Source of the DNA: Nitrospinota bacterium | GTDB lineage: Bacteria > Nitrospinota > Nitrospinia > JACRGO01 | Direction: 5' to 3' | Assembly (NCBI GenBank): GCA_016212295.1 | Contig: JACRGO010000233.1 | Coordinates: forward strand, 1 to 7,009 | Length of the DNA: 7,009 nucleotides | Shown: one piece after another, positions 1-7,009 of the stretch | Position numbering within the stretch: position 1 is the first letter of the stretch | Layout: every line of letters starts with the position of its first letter | Made by a program: the position numbers and the translations under genes | The notes under the pieces: model-generated | What the model was told of the DNA's origin: nothing | Database searches by the model: none | Seen by the model: only the letters and a program-made list of their open reading frames with translations

Positions 1-323
1 ATGATCCCCATTAAGGAAAGGGCAACTGTAATAAAAAGTCCCAACATCCATTGGATAATATCAAATCGCTTATTAGTTGATTCCTTGAGGTCGTTGGTCT
101 GCTGCTGAGTGGACTCCTTGAGGTCGTTGATCTGCTGCTGAGTGGACTCTTTGAGGTCGTTGATCTGCTGCTGAACGCCTCTCTGTCCTTCCTCTAACCT
201 TGCAAGTTTTTCAATAATCTCTCTGTCGGATATGCGAGGGTCGACTTCCACTGCAAGGACACTCGCGGAAGGATACATGGCGCAGAACGCGAGAGACAGA
301 ATAATGAGAAAGGCTTTCTTCAT
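1..323 (-). CDS. Small exported coiled-coil protein with 11-residue repeats and a C-terminal hydrophobic segment (3' end off the window)
   Basis: The first 107 codons are visible and the frame is open to the window edge. Residues 1-24 look like a Sec signal peptide: MKK, then a hydrophobic core (AFLIILSLAFCAM), then a cleavage site after SVLA. Residues 29-48 are charged and helical. Residues 51-83 are three tandem copies of an 11-residue unit, QQQINDLKEST (third copy with T for I), a hendecad period that fits a coiled coil. After NKRFDIIQ comes a hydrophobic stretch from W92 (WMLGLFITVALSLMGI), which reads as a membrane segment. This resembles the many small bacterial proteins with a repeated coiled coil followed by one C-terminal membrane helix; I cannot name a family or function. 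The start at 323 is preferred because it gives a complete signal peptide; the next ATG (codon 16) lies inside the signal core and has no ribosome binding site. No Shine-Dalgarno precedes 323 either. It is separated from the operon to its right by over 500 bases. Confidence 0.8.
   Translation of the reverse strand, partial: MKKAFLIILSLAFCAMYPSASVLAVEVDPRISDREIIEKLARLEEGQRGVQQQINDLKESTQQQINDLKESTQQQTNDLKESTNKRFDIIQWMLGLFITVALSLMGI
81..179 (-). repeat. Three tandem 33-bp repeats encoding the 11-residue coiled-coil unit
   Basis: Units lie at 81-113, 114-146 and 147-179. They are nearly identical: a few substitutions, with the last bases of the third unit diverged. The unit is a multiple of three, so copy-number change keeps the reading frame. 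Confidence 0.9.
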
Positions 324-686: not shown

Positions 687-849
687 TGCCTCGAACGCAT
701 CGGACAAGCCAGAATATCCGCCAAGGCTCAATGAAGCACAGTAAGCATTGACACGCCCCATAACCCTGCTGTGTTGTCATCCTTCTTATCTGCCACATCA
801 GGCCAGTTTGATTGGCGATTATAGTCCCATTATTCCCATTGTCTGTGTA
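687..849 (-). pseudogene. Remnant of a DUF1566 (Lcl C-terminal domain) gene, broken by frameshifts
   Basis: Three pieces of one DUF1566-type domain follow in the correct order but in three different frames. Positions 849-790 read YTDNGNNGTII..NQTGLMWQ, matching the family's opening FTDNGDGTVTDN.TGLMWQ. Positions 781-755 read DDNTAGLWG, matching the DD-T--W-EAL part. Positions 749-687 read NAYCASLSLGGYS followed by SDAFEA, matching AL-YC--LSLGGYSDWRLPD-FEL with the DWRLP motif damaged. At least two frameshifts are needed, plus a probable loss of two codons after GGYS. No start codon context or signal peptide survives, and homology stops within about 50 bases of the propeller gene's stop, so the 5' part is gone. 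Intact DUF1566 domains are found in exported proteins of similar bacteria; the fold's function is poorly known. The call rests on motif order recognised by eye. Sequencing error is unlikely to explain it because both neighbouring long genes are intact. Confidence 0.7.
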
Positions 850-893
850 TTTAGAAATGGAGATTGTGCACCACAAACCCCCGATCAACCATA

Positions 894-2432
894 CTATTTT
901 CTTCCGGTGCTTTCGTTGCCTTGGTGGAAACGGGCTGAACCTGCATTTTGCAAAAGACCGGTGGAGTCAGTGGCAATGGCAAATACGTACCCTCCCTCCG
1001 TCTGAGTGCAACCCTCATTACACGCGGCCATATTGCCAATATATAAAGTTCCATCGTTTGATAAGGCAACTGAACTCCAGGTGCTGTCCGCATAGTTTGG
1101 ATATTGATATGACCAAACCTCAACACCCGTTTTCATATCCAATGCGTGCAATTTTGCTCCTTCTGAACCTACATAAAGAATCCCATTGTCACCCAATGCT
1201 GGAGAAGAATAAAGGTCTCTCCCAATCGCATTCTGCCATAAGAGACCGGAACCGTCCGACTTTACCGCGTAAAAGACCGAATCATTGTTGGACTTGGTGC
1301 CGATGTAAACATTATCCTCATTATCAACGGCGGGTGTGGCGCGAAAGTGTCCTGCCATACCCGTGGGTGTAAACTGCCAAACCTTGGCTCCATCAGCGGC
1401 ATTGAGGCAGTAAATCGTATCATTAATGGCAGCATAAATTTTGGATCCGTCCGCGGAAAAAGCCGGACTGGCAAGAGACTCATCGCCAGAACCCGCATAG
1501 GTCCACCTTGTATTGCCACTGGAATCCACTGAAACCGCCGCCGCGTTTCCAATAAAATAAATATTTCCATTCTTATCTATTATGGGGGCGTTGTATATGC
1601 CGGAAGTTGCGCTGTTTGTCCATTTTTCAGTCCCATCCGTCGTCAGGGCGTACAACTTGTCCACGCCGACATAAATCGTGTCATCGGATGCTATGGCAGG
1701 GCTGGCGGCGCCAATTTGCTGGACATTTGATGATAATATAAGGTGCGTCCATCTTATATTTCCTTTAGAATCAAGAGAATAGAGGTAAAGTTTTGAATTG
1801 GACGTGTCCCCTAATTGCCGGCCTTCCTCCACAACAAAATAAACGTTTCCTCCACTGTCAAGCGCCGCCGAGCCTCTTACCTCCTTCGAGCCTAGAGAAT
1901 ACTCCCATACCTTGGCAAGGGCTGAATCCAATTTGAAAAAATAATTGTCGGTTATCGGATTTCCGTACATCTTAACGGACGTTCCTATGTAGATATTATT
2001 ATCCACCAGGGTCGGAGAGGCATAGTAAAAATAGCCAAACCCATGGGTAAAAGAAGAAAGCAAAGCGCCTCTTTCAATTGTAACTTTTTCATAAACACCT
2101 TCAATCTGTTCCCTTTTGCCTGCCGCGATTTTCACCGTCCGGGTCCCATTTTGAGGACTTTTAATGGTATAGCCATCCACATCTCCGAATTTAATTGTAT
2201 ATGATTTATCAGCGGGAACTTTTATCAGCTTCTTTCCCTTTTTGTCGGTTTTCATATTTTTTGCATTCAAAGTGAAAGAGACATTTCCGAGCATTTGGCC
2301 GTCCGTGTCCTTGGTAATAACGATCAATGTCCCATTTCCCTTCTTTGCATAAGCCCTGTCGCCAGAAAATGATGCATCCAAGGAAATGAATACAAAGAAC
2401 AATAAAAAAACAAACGTTAAACTCTTTTTCAT
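894..2432 (-). CDS. Exported eight-blade PQQ-like beta-propeller protein with an N-terminal beta module
   Basis: The 512-residue protein starts at 2432 (MKKSLTFVFLLFFVF...). The in-frame ATG 13 codons upstream (2471) would overlap the previous stop and put [13 protein letters not shown] before the signal peptide. Residues 1-29 are a Sec signal peptide ending AYA. Residues 34-115 are a small beta module (GTLIV..., YTIKFGDVDGYTIK, TVKI--G, GVYEK) that is also present in the upstream gene. From about 138 to 495 I count eight PQQ-like propeller repeats of the form SPA-...-(D/N)G-IY-G...L-AL...G---W: ASPTLVD, GSAALD, ASPAIAS, NAPIID, ASPAFS, ATPAVD, SSPALG and SSVALS. The last blade carries a close cysteine pair, C471 and C475. 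The tail FHQGNESTGRK is a degenerate form of the (F/W)..D..NTGR ending common in this type of propeller. No PQQ-dehydrogenase catalytic residues or haem motif (CXXCH) are seen, so this is probably a structural or binding propeller in the periplasm or outside the cell. It lies 35 bases behind the RCC1 gene and is probably co-transcribed. Confidence 0.9.
   Translation of the reverse strand: MKKSLTFVFLLFFVFISLDASFSGDRAYAKKGNGTLIVITKDTDGQMLGNVSFTLNAKNMKTDKKGKKLIKVPADKSYTIKFGDVDGYTIKSPQNGTRTVKIAAGKREQIEGVYEKVTIERGALLSSFTHGFGYFYYASPTLVDNNIYIGTSVKMYGNPITDNYFFKLDSALAKVWEYSLGSKEVRGSAALDSGGNVYFVVEEGRQLGDTSNSKLYLYSLDSKGNIRWTHLILSSNVQQIGAASPAIASDDTIYVGVDKLYALTTDGTEKWTNSATSGIYNAPIIDKNGNIYFIGNAAAVSVDSSGNTRWTYAGSGDESLASPAFSADGSKIYAAINDTIYCLNAADGAKVWQFTPTGMAGHFRATPAVDNEDNVYIGTKSNNDSVFYAVKSDGSGLLWQNAIGRDLYSSPALGDNGILYVGSEGAKLHALDMKTGVEVWSYQYPNYADSTWSSVALSNDGTLYIGNMAACNEGCTQTEGGYVFAIATDSTGLLQNAGSARFHQGNESTGRK
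2088..2333 (-). repeat. Shared N-terminal beta module, copy in the PQQ-like protein
   Basis: Residues 34-115 of the propeller protein. By eye, 22 of 40 positions in its second half are identical to the matching segment of the RCC1 protein (from YT(I/V)KFG to GVYE(K/R)V). The pattern resembles short PEGA-like or carboxypeptidase-regulatory-like beta domains, but I do not assign a family. Confidence 0.75.
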
Positions 2433-2439
2433 AATCTTT

Positions 2440-2447
2440 CCCCTTTT
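2440..2447 (-). promoter_or_regulatory. Ribosome binding site deciding the start of the PQQ-like gene
   Basis: AAAAGGGG on the minus strand ends 7 bases before the ATG at 2432. It is a moderate Shine-Dalgarno-like purine run, and it supports the 2432 start over the in-frame ATG at 2471. Confidence 0.55.
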
Positions 2448-2467
2448 AAAAGTTATAGTTTGGATAA

Positions 2468-5400
2468 TCAAAAGCTTGTTGCCTGGACCGGGGTGTAGCT
2501 ATTGGTCGTGGTCCCGTTCCCGAACTGGCCCATGCCACCTACGCCCCACCCCCACACCGTGCCGTCGCTTTTCAGGGCAAGGGAAAATTGATAGCCCCTG
2601 GCGACGGCGGTAACGCTGGAAAGGCCGCTCACCTGGACCGGTGAGTATCTTATCGTTGTGCTTCCATCTCCCAATTGGCCCGAAGTATTGGAACCCCAAG
2701 CCCAAACCGTGCCGTCGCTCTTGAGGGCCAGGGTATGCTGGTGAGCACATGCAAGGGCCGTAACCCCGGTCAATCCTGTAGCGGCCGCGCTTGGGGTAAG
2801 TCTTTGACCCACCACAGTTCCAGTTCCATCCCCCAATTCGCCTGAAGTATTGGAACCCCAAGCCCAGACCGTGCCGTTCGTTTTTACGGCAAGGGAGTAG
2901 GTTCCTCCAGCGCCGATGATGTTCACTCCGGTGAGGCCGCTTACCTGCACTGGTGTGGAACGGCTGGTGGTTGAGCCGTCCCCTAATTGGCCCGAAGTAT
3001 TAGATCCCCAAGCCCAGACCGTTCCATCGCTTTTAAGCGCAAGGGAATGGTAATATCCTACGTCAATAGCGACCACGCCTGTCAGACCGCTCACCTGCAC
3101 TGGTGTGGAGCGGTTGGTGGTTGTGCCGTCCCCTAATAGGCCGGGGGCGAACCCATTATATCCCCAAGCCCAGACCGTGCCGTCGCTTTTAAGAGCAAGC
3201 GAATGGCCCATGCCGACGGCTATGGCTGTTATTCCGGTGAGACTTGTTACCTGAACAGGGCTGGAGCTGTTTGTCGTTGAGCCGTTTCCCAACTCACCAG
3301 CCCCATTATTCCCCCAGGCCCAGACCGTGCCATCATTTTTCAGGGCCACGGTAAAGCTCCACCCTCCCTCCATGGCGGAAATGCCCGTAAGCCCGGTTGC
3401 CACCTGAACAGGAGAGATGCGGTCCGTGGTTGTCCCGTCCCCCAGTTGTCCTGCGGCATTCCACCCCCAAGCCCAGATGGAGCCGGTGCTCTTAAAAGCC
3501 AAGGTGTGAAAATACCCCCCTCCTATTGATGTGGTCACCTTGGTATAGGTCTCGGACCTTACAGATTCCGAATTCCCGGCGTTATCCACGCTGAAAAATT
3601 TCAGAGTGGTTGTGGAAGAAATAGTGATGGCGGCGGAATAGACCGTTGAAGCGGTGGTGGGTATGCTTCCGTCGATTGTATAGTAGGTCTTGTTAGCAGC
3701 GCACCCGGAGCCTCCTGAATCGGAACAGGACAGAGTGATTGTTTGCGTGGAAGTGAAAGTCCCGCTTGAAGGCGAGGCCGCTGTGGTAGGCGCGGTTGTA
3801 TCTGGAATGGTGTAGGTTGCTAACTTGACGGTCTCCGAATTTCCGGAGTTATCCACGCTGAAAAATTTCAGAGTGGTTGTGGAAGAAATAGTGATGGCGG
3901 TGGAGTAAGCCGGGGAAGAAGCGGTGGGTGTGCTCCCATCGGTAGTGTAGTAGGTCTTGTTAGTAGCGCATCCTGAACCGCCGGAATTGTCCGAACAGGA
4001 CAAGACCACCGATTGAGCGGAACCATACGATCCTCCGGCGGGTGAGGCCGTGGTTGTGGGAGCGGTTGCATCGGAGATGGTATAGGTTTCAGTCCTGACC
4101 GCTTCCTTGTTTCCCGCTTTATCCGTGCTATAAAATTTTATGGTTTTGTTGGAGGAAACGCCGATGGTGTCGGGAGAAACCATGGCCGTTACCGTGGAGG
4201 ACGTTAGAGGGTCCGTTCCGTCTGATGTATGGTATATTTTGTCGCAGCCTGATCTGCCCGTGTCCGAGCAAGTCAAAGTAACATTTAAAGCTGAGGTAAA
4301 GGTCCCTCCCGCAGGGGAGACAGTAGTTGTAGGGGCGATTGTGTCGATGGGGGTAGTGCTGGTTTCCGTCCCGCCGCTTGTGGACCCGCCGGAAGAACCG
4401 CCCCCGCTCGTGCTTCCTCCGCTTGATCCACCGCTGGTGGAACCACCTGAGCTTCCGCCACTGCTGCTCCCCCCGGATGATCCACCACTGGTGGAACCGC
4501 CGCTTGTGCTGCCGCCGGAACCGCTTCCGCCGGAGGAGCCACCGCTCGTGGACCCGCCGTTGCTGCTACCCGGATTCGTGGTCGTGATTGGGGCGGCTTT
4601 CAAGACAAAACTTCCTTTCGCCGCTTCCACCGCCTTGCCTGCTTTGTCTTTTACCCGTAGGGAGTATGTGTATGTCCCAGCAACCCATCCGGCGGTGGAA
4701 AAGTTGCCGCTATAGGAGGCAGAGTAGCCGCCCGGATACCAGGACGGAGGCGCATACTTTTGTGCCCCGGATGCGTCCGTCACCGCAAAGGTCATTTCAG
4801 ATAAGCCGCTGGATGCCCTCCCATCCGCAAAATAATAAATAGCATTTCCCGCGACATAGGACAAGTATATTCCAGTAATATTTCCTGAAGGGTTGGCGGT
4901 ATTTTCACCGTTGTTAATGCCGCCGTCCTTCACCGAGCCGCCGCTGTTATTCCCGCCACCGGCATAAACGCCATCACCTTTGGCGCCAGGAATAGTTATT
5001 TCTTGCGGCATCTTTAAAAGAAAGCTTCCCTTGGCAACCTCCCATGCCTGGCCGGTTTGATCCTTGACCCAAAGGGCATAAAAATACATCCCCCCTTCCT
5101 GCCATTTTGGGCCGGAAATGAGAAAAGATTCACCTGCGCGAGAGGAGGGGACCCATAGTTTTTTATAAGCCTCTTTACCGGATGGGCTTGCCACCAGGAA
5201 TGTCATATTGCTAAGGGGTTGATTGTATATAGCCTCAACCGAGTAAGAAAGCTTATCTCCGTATGTATAACTGCCTTGGATGTCTGTTACAATTCCCGTC
5301 GGCGAAGATTTATCCCCACTATTTATCCTGCTGTCTCCCTGTTGGCCGCTTTTTCTTTTGGATTCGTCGTAGAGGATGATAACCGTTTTTAAAGATGTTA

Positions 5401-6754
5401 CAAGGTTATTGTTGGGATCCCGGTAAAGGGCTTTGATTTTGAGTGGAACGTTATAGTTGACTGGCAATATTTTAGTGGTAAGCTCCCCATTATGATTTAT
5501 AGATGAATAATCAATTGGAATGGTGGATTCTATTGAAGAAAATACGGTGGAACCAGCGCCGGTTTTTGGAGTAAGATCGGATACAAGAGTCCATTCTTCA
5601 GCCTGCACGGTTTCTGGTTTGCCGTTTCTGGTTACCTTGATAGAATATTTAGCGGTAGAATTTTCTGAAACTTTTTCCGGACCGATTATTTCAACTATTC
5701 CTGTATCTTCCGCATAGGCAGAAAATGTTTCCTGCGCTACAGATGTTAAACATTCTTTTGGGTTCAGGCGGCCACATGAAGAAACCAAATCTAACCCTTT
5801 ACTAAAAAATCCTGCGGCTTTATTGCCGGTCGCAAGATTCACGATATCGAGGCCGGCACTGGCGCAAGCCATAGAGGCAGCTAAGGCTGCAACCGGCACT
5901 AAAGGACCGGAAACAGGAATTGCAATAGCTCCAAGCGCGCAACCAACAGCCCCAGAGATTTTAAATCCCCATTCGACCATATTTACAGTCGATTTCTCAA
6001 TAAGATAATCCGAACTGATAAGCAGCCCGTTATCCTCCAAACGGGAAGAAGAGGTTAATGTCATGGATTGCAAGGATTTAAGGCTGTTAACATCAATAAT
6101 AGTCGTGGCAGGACCAGCAGTGAGGTTTCCCTTGGAATCATAGAGGGATATGTCAACGGTGTTAGCCGTATAGTTGGAAAGTTTCGCCGTATACCCGCTG
6201 GAATCGGTATACGCGGCGGGGAGTCCATCATCCCCCAACGTGAAACTGACCCAACTTCCGTCCGCCTGGTTGGAAAGTGTCGCGCCAGTGATTTTCGTGG
6301 GGTTCCCGTTCTCGTCTTTTTCCGCCGTTACTCCCAATGCCTCCGCACCGGTGCTGAGGACGCCTATCACGGCAAAGGGACTTTGAGCGTCCTTTACCTC
6401 GAACATCTTGATGGTCTCATCCCCCACTCTTTCATAAACCCCGGAGACCTTTGTCTCTTTTCCTGGCGTTACCTTGACTGTCTTTTTCCCATTTTTAGGG
6501 TCCTTGATGGAGTACCCCGCCAGTTCACCGAATTTCACGGTATAATTTTTAGGGGGAAGGCTAAGCTTCATCTCCCCTTTCCCCTTCTTTCTCTCAACCG
6601 TGATCGATGCGTCGACCTTCGCCCCTTGGGAGTCAACGGACTTGACGATCAATGTCCCTGTTTTTCTCCCTGCCTCCGAGTCCCCATGAAACAAAAAAGC
6701 GCCCATGACCACAAAAGCCATCAGCGCTGAAATAAAAATAGTCCATTTTTTCAT
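2468..6754 (-). CDS. Large exported mosaic protein: Ig-like domains, Gly/Ser linker, three chitobiase-C-terminal-like repeats, seven-blade RCC1 propeller
   Basis: The 1428-residue protein is probably secreted or held at the cell surface. Residues 1-28 are a Sec signal peptide (cleavage after SEA; no lipobox cysteine). Residues 32-108 are the beta module shared with the next gene. Residues 109-265 are beta-rich and unrecognised. Residues 266-305 are strongly hydrophobic, and cysteines lie at 272, 297, 327 and 335. Residues 353-462 look Ig-like ([17 protein letters not shown]). Residues 485-581 and 622-719 are a tandem pair of one domain, each ending (L/V)KD--G-A-E-AKGSF-LK. Residues 729-795 are a Gly/Ser/Thr linker. 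Residues 804-894, 895-984 and 985-1071 are chitobiase/hexosaminidase C-terminal-like repeats ([29 protein letters not shown]). Residues 1075-1428 hold seven RCC1 repeats of about 50 residues ([30 protein letters not shown]), a full propeller. No enzyme active site is visible; ligand binding or adhesion is plausible but unproven. No sorting motif follows the propeller. It is the first gene of a likely two-gene operon. Confidence 0.92.
2471..3532 (-). repeat. Seven RCC1 repeats forming a complete C-terminal propeller
   Basis: The WAWG-type core occurs seven times: [86 protein letters not shown] and [14 protein letters not shown]. Seven is the canonical blade number for RCC1. Blade 3 has a two-residue insertion and blade 5 a longer loop ([10 protein letters not shown]). 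The protein ends right after blade 7 (TPVQATSF). Confidence 0.92.
3581..3633. repeat. 53-bp exact direct repeat, copy in chitobiase-like repeat 3
   Basis: Identical over 53 bases to 3848-3900, at an offset of 267 bases (89 codons, one protein repeat). It encodes [17 protein letters not shown]. This indicates recent duplication or gene conversion between repeats 2 and 3. Confidence 0.9.
3848..3900. repeat. 53-bp exact direct repeat, copy in chitobiase-like repeat 2
   Basis: Partner of 3581-3633, same orientation and same codon frame. The flanking DNA diverges to the ordinary level of the domain repeats. Confidence 0.9.
4370..4570 (-). repeat. Gly/Ser/Thr linker with degenerate [10 protein letters not shown] units
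   Basis: Residues 729-795 are almost entirely G, S and T, built from repeats of GGS, SGGS and GGSTSG. It separates the Ig-like half from the chitobiase/RCC1 half, so it is probably a flexible tether. At DNA level it is a run of imperfect short repeats and likely length-variable. The complementary strand reads as an open proline-rich frame, which is an artefact. Confidence 0.9.
6431..6661 (-). repeat. Shared N-terminal beta module, copy in the RCC1 protein
   Basis: Residues 32-108, directly after the signal peptide: [12 protein letters not shown], then [19 protein letters not shown], then TVKV-PG and GVYER. It is matched in order and spacing by residues 34-115 of the next gene's product. Confidence 0.75.
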
Positions 6755-6759
6755 TTGCC

Positions 6760-6768
6760 CCTCCTTTT
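6760..6768 (-). promoter_or_regulatory. Strong ribosome binding site of the RCC1 gene
   Basis: AAAAGGAGG on the minus strand ends 5 bases before the ATG at 6754. It is a full Shine-Dalgarno match and fixes the start codon. Confidence 0.85.
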
Positions 6769-6853: not shown

Positions 6854-6922
6854 AAAATAACTCGTAAAAAAGCCGAAGTTGCGATATTTTTCCTGCTTTC
6901 TGCATTTTACCCCGGCCACCCC

Positions 6923-6949
6923 CCTGCCTGTGCGTCGCACGCAGACAGG
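6923..6949. repeat. Imperfect 27-base palindrome, intergenic REP-like hairpin
   Basis: CCTGCCTGTGCG and CACGCAGACAGG flank TCG. The ends pair (CCTG with CAGG, CTG with CAG), with mismatches and G-T pairs inside. The core GTGCGTCGCAC (6930-6940) is a perfect 11-base palindrome in an alternative pairing. It is GC-rich within an AT-rich spacer and has no T-run after it, so it is more like a dispersed palindromic element than a terminator. Confidence 0.5.
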
Positions 6950-7009
6950 TCTCAAGAGGGGAATTAAAAGTCGTAATGTCTCAATTTTAGAGGAAGCCCA
7001 AAAATAAAA

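Follow-up and report, generated by a model that had tools for sequence, protein, structure and literature searches.

A basic N-terminal module shared by two adjacent propeller genes belongs to a genome-wide family of exported proteins in a Nitrospinota bacterium

Why should two neighboring genes that encode different propeller proteins carry the same N-terminal module? The original prediction for this locus was that the module is a common docking or targeting element and that the two propellers form a paired extracellular system. We addressed this question for a Nitrospinota bacterium (assembly GCA_016212295.1), taking as our window the 7,009 nucleotides at positions 1-7,009 of contig JACRGO010000233.1, named C197 in our analysis. 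The two genes (W1 and W2) lie on one strand at the predicted distance of 35 bases, with AAAAGGGGAAAGATT preceding the W2 ATG, and both encode Sec-type signal peptides that, by inspection, carry no lipobox cysteine. The features of the window and the members of the module family are listed in Table 1.

Table 1. Features of the window and genome-wide occurrence of the module, by contig
Feature	Position or contig	Strand	Remarks
Gene 1 (W1)	2468..6754	-	1428 aa; signal peptide, module, region without family, CHB_HEX repeats, RCC1 propeller
W1 ribosome-binding site region	6755..6768	-	AAAAGGAGGGGC; start of DNA homology with the C110 orphan copy
W1 signal peptide	6671..6754	-	residues 1-28; cleavage about SEA/GRK, by inspection
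W1 N-terminal module	6425..6658	-	residues 33-110
W1 CHB_HEX_C_1/Fn3_assoc repeats (n=3)	3545..4294	-	about residues 821-1070
W1 RCC1 repeats (n=7)	2471..3505	-	
Intergenic gap, 35 bases	2433..2467	-	holds W2 ribosome-binding site AAAAGGGG
Gene 2 (W2)	894..2432	-	512 aa; signal peptide, module, PQQ/BamB-like propeller
W2 signal peptide	2346..2432	-	residues 1-29; cleavage about AYA/KKG, by inspection
W2 N-terminal module	2082..2333	-	residues 34-117
W2 PQQ/BamB-like propeller, eight-blade	897..2078	-	residues 119-512; blade count by inspection
Contig right end	6869..7009		141 bases identical to C109 left end
Loci with two module genes each	C197 (window), C163, C119, C110		C110 plus orphan fragment
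Loci with one module gene each	C81, C211, C187, C236, C93, C97, C156, C219, C60, C30, C98, C168, C109		
Loci with two module copies	C190, C131		in C190, both in one protein
FISUMP passengers	C60, C119a, C156, C236, C211		C211 with FGE and CHB_HEX
Lcl_C (DUF1566) passengers	C97, C110 (two), C119b, C98		C119b and C98 broken
RCC1 passengers	C197, C163a		
PQQ propeller passenger	C197		
Kelch passenger	C219		
CAP passenger	C187		
Subtilase passenger	C30		
CHB_HEX passengers	C190, C93		
Passengers without Pfam family	C163b, C109		

The C-terminal passengers proved to be of the predicted kinds, i.e., a seven-blade RCC1 propeller in W1 and an eight-blade PQQ-like propeller in W2. More specifically, a Gly/Ser-rich linker with the three CHB_HEX_C_1 repeats precedes the RCC1 repeats of W1, all seven of which scored above the cut-off. 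W2 matched Pfam PQQ_2 (6e-22; 78.9 bits against a cut-off of 27.6), and eight blade motifs were recognized by inspection, starting from about residues 141, 187, 243, 281, 321, 365, 411, and 454. The single-sequence model of the whole W2 protein was poor (pLDDT 55.7) and was therefore used for the propeller only; in this low-confidence model, two designed propellers whose names mark them as eight-fold, Cake8 and v31Bagel8, were among the best structural matches, with BamB further down. BamB proper was rejected as an identity for W2, which scored 57.7 bits against the NCBIfam BamB equivalog cut-off of 285.2 and has no lipobox cysteine. The portion of W1 from about residue 113 to 480 (5315-6418, minus strand) gave no Pfam match and includes a hydrophobic, glycine/alanine-rich stretch at about residues 255-310; no homologue of this portion was found in 40 relatives.

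Several further elements flank the pair. Just downstream of W2, positions 705-918 (minus strand) hold a decayed Lcl_C/DUF1566 remnant (YTDNGNNGTIIANQTGLMWQ, CASLSLGGYSG) with broken frames (tblastn E about 1e-5). Positions 3-323 (minus strand) encode a small exported protein of the coiled-coil/TM type, in which an 11-residue unit (NDLKESTQQQI) is repeated. Proteins related to it and sharing its PRISDREIIE motif are encoded on L020, L065, and L010, and module or Lcl genes are present on these contigs as well. A short AT-rich dispersed repeat at 363-402 recurs on L059 and L060 (90-97% over 32-40 bases). At the opposite end of the window, the identity of positions 6869-7009 to the start of C109 represents an assembly overlap, which would put a third, divergent module gene (899 aa, no Pfam match) beside W1.

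Comparison of the two modules confirmed that homologous domains of about 80 residues follow both signal peptides (46% identity; BLASTP E 6e-17 over 96 residues), with an alignment score of 167 versus 29.8 ± 5.5 for shuffled sequences (z about 25). The predicted 22 identities among the 40 residues of the second half were obtained again, and the two copies fell into one family rather than into unrelated ones. This family extends far beyond the pair. When the genome (3.74 Mb in 237 contigs, 90.5% complete) was searched, a single module as query returned 23 matches and a profile 26-29, resolving into 24 genes or remnants, as expected of a common element that is not peculiar to W1 and W2. The module was predicted always to lie directly behind a signal peptide, and it does so, with a Sec-type signal peptide, wherever the gene start is readable; the exception is C131, where a gene interrupted by frame changes has its copies internally, flanked by propeller-like parts on one side and CHB_HEX/outer-membrane-barrel parts on the other. 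On C81 and C236, the gene is cut off by the contig end. Behind the module we found many passenger classes, in line with the predicted variety of C-termini, and this genome also encodes many Lcl_C and RCC1 proteins that lack the module. Two Lcl paralogues (L019 4137-4424/3173-4249 and L024 2618-2896/2790-3296; 84% DNA identity) have frame breaks inside the module at about the same place, followed by an open downstream frame, and L020 is likewise frame-broken near this site; decay, error, or recoding may lie behind these breaks.

Module genes also proved to be neighbors often, as had been anticipated: four adjacent pairs (on C197, C163, C119, and C110) were observed versus 0.16 expected (about 3500 genes assumed), an excess of the kind that tandem copying would give. 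In a module tree with few supported branches, W2 grouped with C81 and W1 fell into a weak group with the C110 Lcl genes; passenger classes did not cluster on this poorly resolved tree, 67 of 200 shuffles being as low.

How the module came to precede so many passengers is suggested by the DNA itself. When the 5' ends of these genes are compared, homology often sets in close to the ribosome-binding site and breaks off where the module or the signal peptide ends; the DNA beyond is unrelated. The RCC1 gene on C163 and its adjoining gene without Pfam family are 85.6% identical over -26..+343 and unrelated thereafter, and the Kelch gene on C219 shares 73-77% with the FISUMP genes on C156, C236, and C60 in blocks that start at -24 to -57 and end at about +350. 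Likewise, an orphan copy of the W1 5' end on C110 (L057, minus strand near 2489-2716; 84-87% identity) begins at the ribosome-binding site and ends mid-module, at a point between codons 70 and 80; unrelated DNA and, close by, the gene of another exported protein follow it. Finally, two neighboring genes on C97 (L018, 2897 and 3790, plus strand) are 95% identical over -29..+97, which covers only the leader and signal peptide, and their mature proteins are unrelated (module plus Lcl_C versus TIG plus FGE). These blocks indicate that leader segments, some including the module and some not, were copied onto different coding sequences, and cassette copying of 5' leaders within the genome is thus strongly supported by the aligned sequences. 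We also considered whether a diversity-generating retroelement diversifies the lectin-like passengers and rejected this idea, the single reverse transcriptase found in the 90.5% complete assembly being of the group II intron type by our reading of its QGGVISP and YADD motifs.

To what kind of domain might the module belong? No copy exceeded any Pfam or NCBIfam cut-off. PEGA (PF08308) was the commonest match below threshold (in 6 of 18 modules; best 9e-4), but no copy reached its gathering cut-off of 20.8 bits, and assignment to PEGA or to any other named family is not established; the resemblance lies in small domain size and these weak matches, whereas the conserved FG..GY..P core and the strong basicity belong to the module. 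AlphaFold, given the two copies of the window, predicted a model of seven strands at moderate confidence (pLDDT 73). Foldseek returned nothing significant with this model, and searching PDB sequences with a profile of the module yielded nothing better than E 0.3. In a second structural comparison, the SdrD B-domain, UafA, and CnaB2 appeared in the top rows, with RrgA and transthyretin (prealbumin) lower; the CnaB/transthyretin rows reached Z 2.4-3.8 on this moderate model, below the aligner's clear range. Unlike CnaB domains, the module has no conserved Asn suggestive of an isopeptide bond. Taken with the PEGA matches, these weak resemblances hint at a putative prealbumin/PEGA-like beta-sandwich. 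Among proteins of the same genome, the Lcl proteins at L062 and L063 have a CarboxypepD_reg domain (PF13620) in the same place, between signal peptide and Lcl_C; however, the module gave no Pfam match to this family, and hhalign detected no profile-profile similarity, with two local domain sequences only on one side. FISUMP (PF09603) is likewise a paralogous exported family, and five members here carry the module, but FISUMP proteins share a C-terminal domain, whereas the module is N-terminal and shared across families.

The module is also marked by its charge. Each of the 17 full-length copies that were scored is basic (net charge between +6 and +13 over about 80 residues; pI 9.6-10.3), the basic columns of the alignment being concentrated in the second half. 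In contrast, the passengers are net negative except for CAP (+2), with a mean of -2.7 per 100 residues (Wilcoxon p 3e-5 versus the modules, paralogues that share descent; the 7-residue remainder of C81 was left out). The equivalent segment of 25 module-less exported controls, drawn from the same loci by a crude signal-peptide rule, averaged -0.6 per 100 residues (Mann-Whitney p 1e-7). Such a composition would suit electrostatic attachment to anionic envelope polymers.

Outside this genome, a search of 76 further genomes of the phylum, the sole same-genus genome among them, returned no module match at E<=1e-3, and six relatives searched at E<=10 gave chance-level matches only (best 0.12). Two pattern scans over 84,980 species and a tblastn search of phages and plasmids likewise found no module; all of these searches have limited sensitivity for a short divergent domain. 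A match on a viral contig (L070) was rejected as a homologue: its score with the module profile was no better than chance, and it lies in an apparent phage structural gene. The W2 propeller and the W1 middle part had no counterpart in 40 relatives either; parts of the later repeated domains in the W1 middle part are similar to three further sites of this genome. As no match was found in these relatives and scans, the family looks like a species-level expansion, although short divergent domains are easily missed.

We propose, with a probability of about one in two, that the module is a cationic N-terminal domain that serves for envelope retention or as a stalk, and that it spread as 5' leaders were copied from gene to gene onto different passengers. 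Sec would export the proteins, perhaps followed by type II secretion, of which GspG is encoded above cut-off in this genome and a GspD-like protein below cut-off. The basic module would then hold the protein at the envelope via anionic envelope polymers, and the acidic C-terminal passenger (FISUMP/Lcl_C lectin-like, propeller, protease, or CAP) would face outward or act nearby. Leader segments comprising the ribosome-binding site and signal peptide, with or without the module, would have been copied within the genome onto the various passengers. The layout has a functional precedent in Legionella Lcl, in which the N-terminal part binds the bacterial surface and the C-terminal DUF1566 domain binds glycans (PMC11162425). 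This exported protein resembles ours in placing a surface-binding N-terminus ahead of a DUF1566 lectin-like domain, but that N-terminus consists of a short amphipathic helix and a collagen-like stalk rather than a beta domain (PMC11162425), and Lcl is a parallel in function, with no kinship to the module. As originally predicted, the module may plausibly act in targeting or docking.

Other readings account for parts of these observations. The module might be a passive spacer, i.e., a ligand-free Ig/prealbumin-like stalk carried along inside the copied leader, which would fit the C97 leader copied without a module, the CarboxypepD_reg-like domain at the module's place in sister Lcl genes, and passengers that presumably work without it. 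However, every full-length copy is basic down to about 25-30% identity and the P/GY/FG core is conserved, which suggests selection beyond spacing, and we consider a mere spacer somewhat unlikely. A more far-reaching form of our proposal, in which leader shuffling is active, 5' cassettes being repeatedly copied onto new coding sequences for surface display, and the module is a previously undescribed envelope-attachment domain, appears doubtful to us. The module could also be a secretion or sorting tag read by a dedicated export or attachment machine, as it is the sole element common to many unrelated exported passengers, sits directly behind the signal peptide, and occurs in a genome with type II secretion parts; but module-less paralogous passengers also have signal peptides, and no partner gene common to the module loci was found among neighbors that are mixed and include several housekeeping genes, making such a tag improbable. 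The dedicated two-protein RCC1/PQQ system docked via the shared module is very improbable and not supported: although W1 and W2 are likely co-transcribed from one strand at 35 bp, none of 40 relatives has a counterpart of the pair, the module is present in some 22 other genes, the W1 and W2 modules are not nearest neighbors in the poorly resolved tree, the other module-bearing RCC1 gene (C163) adjoins an unrelated passenger, and the remaining RCC1 genes of the genome have no module match.

Under the leader-copying proposal, the RCC1 and PQQ neighbors share the module without functional partnership, their pairing is incidental, and the module appears to be a reusable building block for the front end of proteins, not the signature of a machine made of two proteins. 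The presumed two-protein system is replaced by a genome-wide family. Its members follow a known type of arrangement, in which paralogous exported proteins have an N-terminal domain in common; here, the copying of leaders is recorded with unusual clarity. The analysis adds an uncatalogued N-terminal domain, by which its carriers could be annotated together. Leaders that are 95%, 86%, and 84-87% identical and sit on unrelated or missing passengers provide a clear natural case of how bacteria may place export and retention signals on new proteins, and the contrast between basic module and acidic passenger offers a simple, testable hypothesis for how such proteins may be held at the cell surface.
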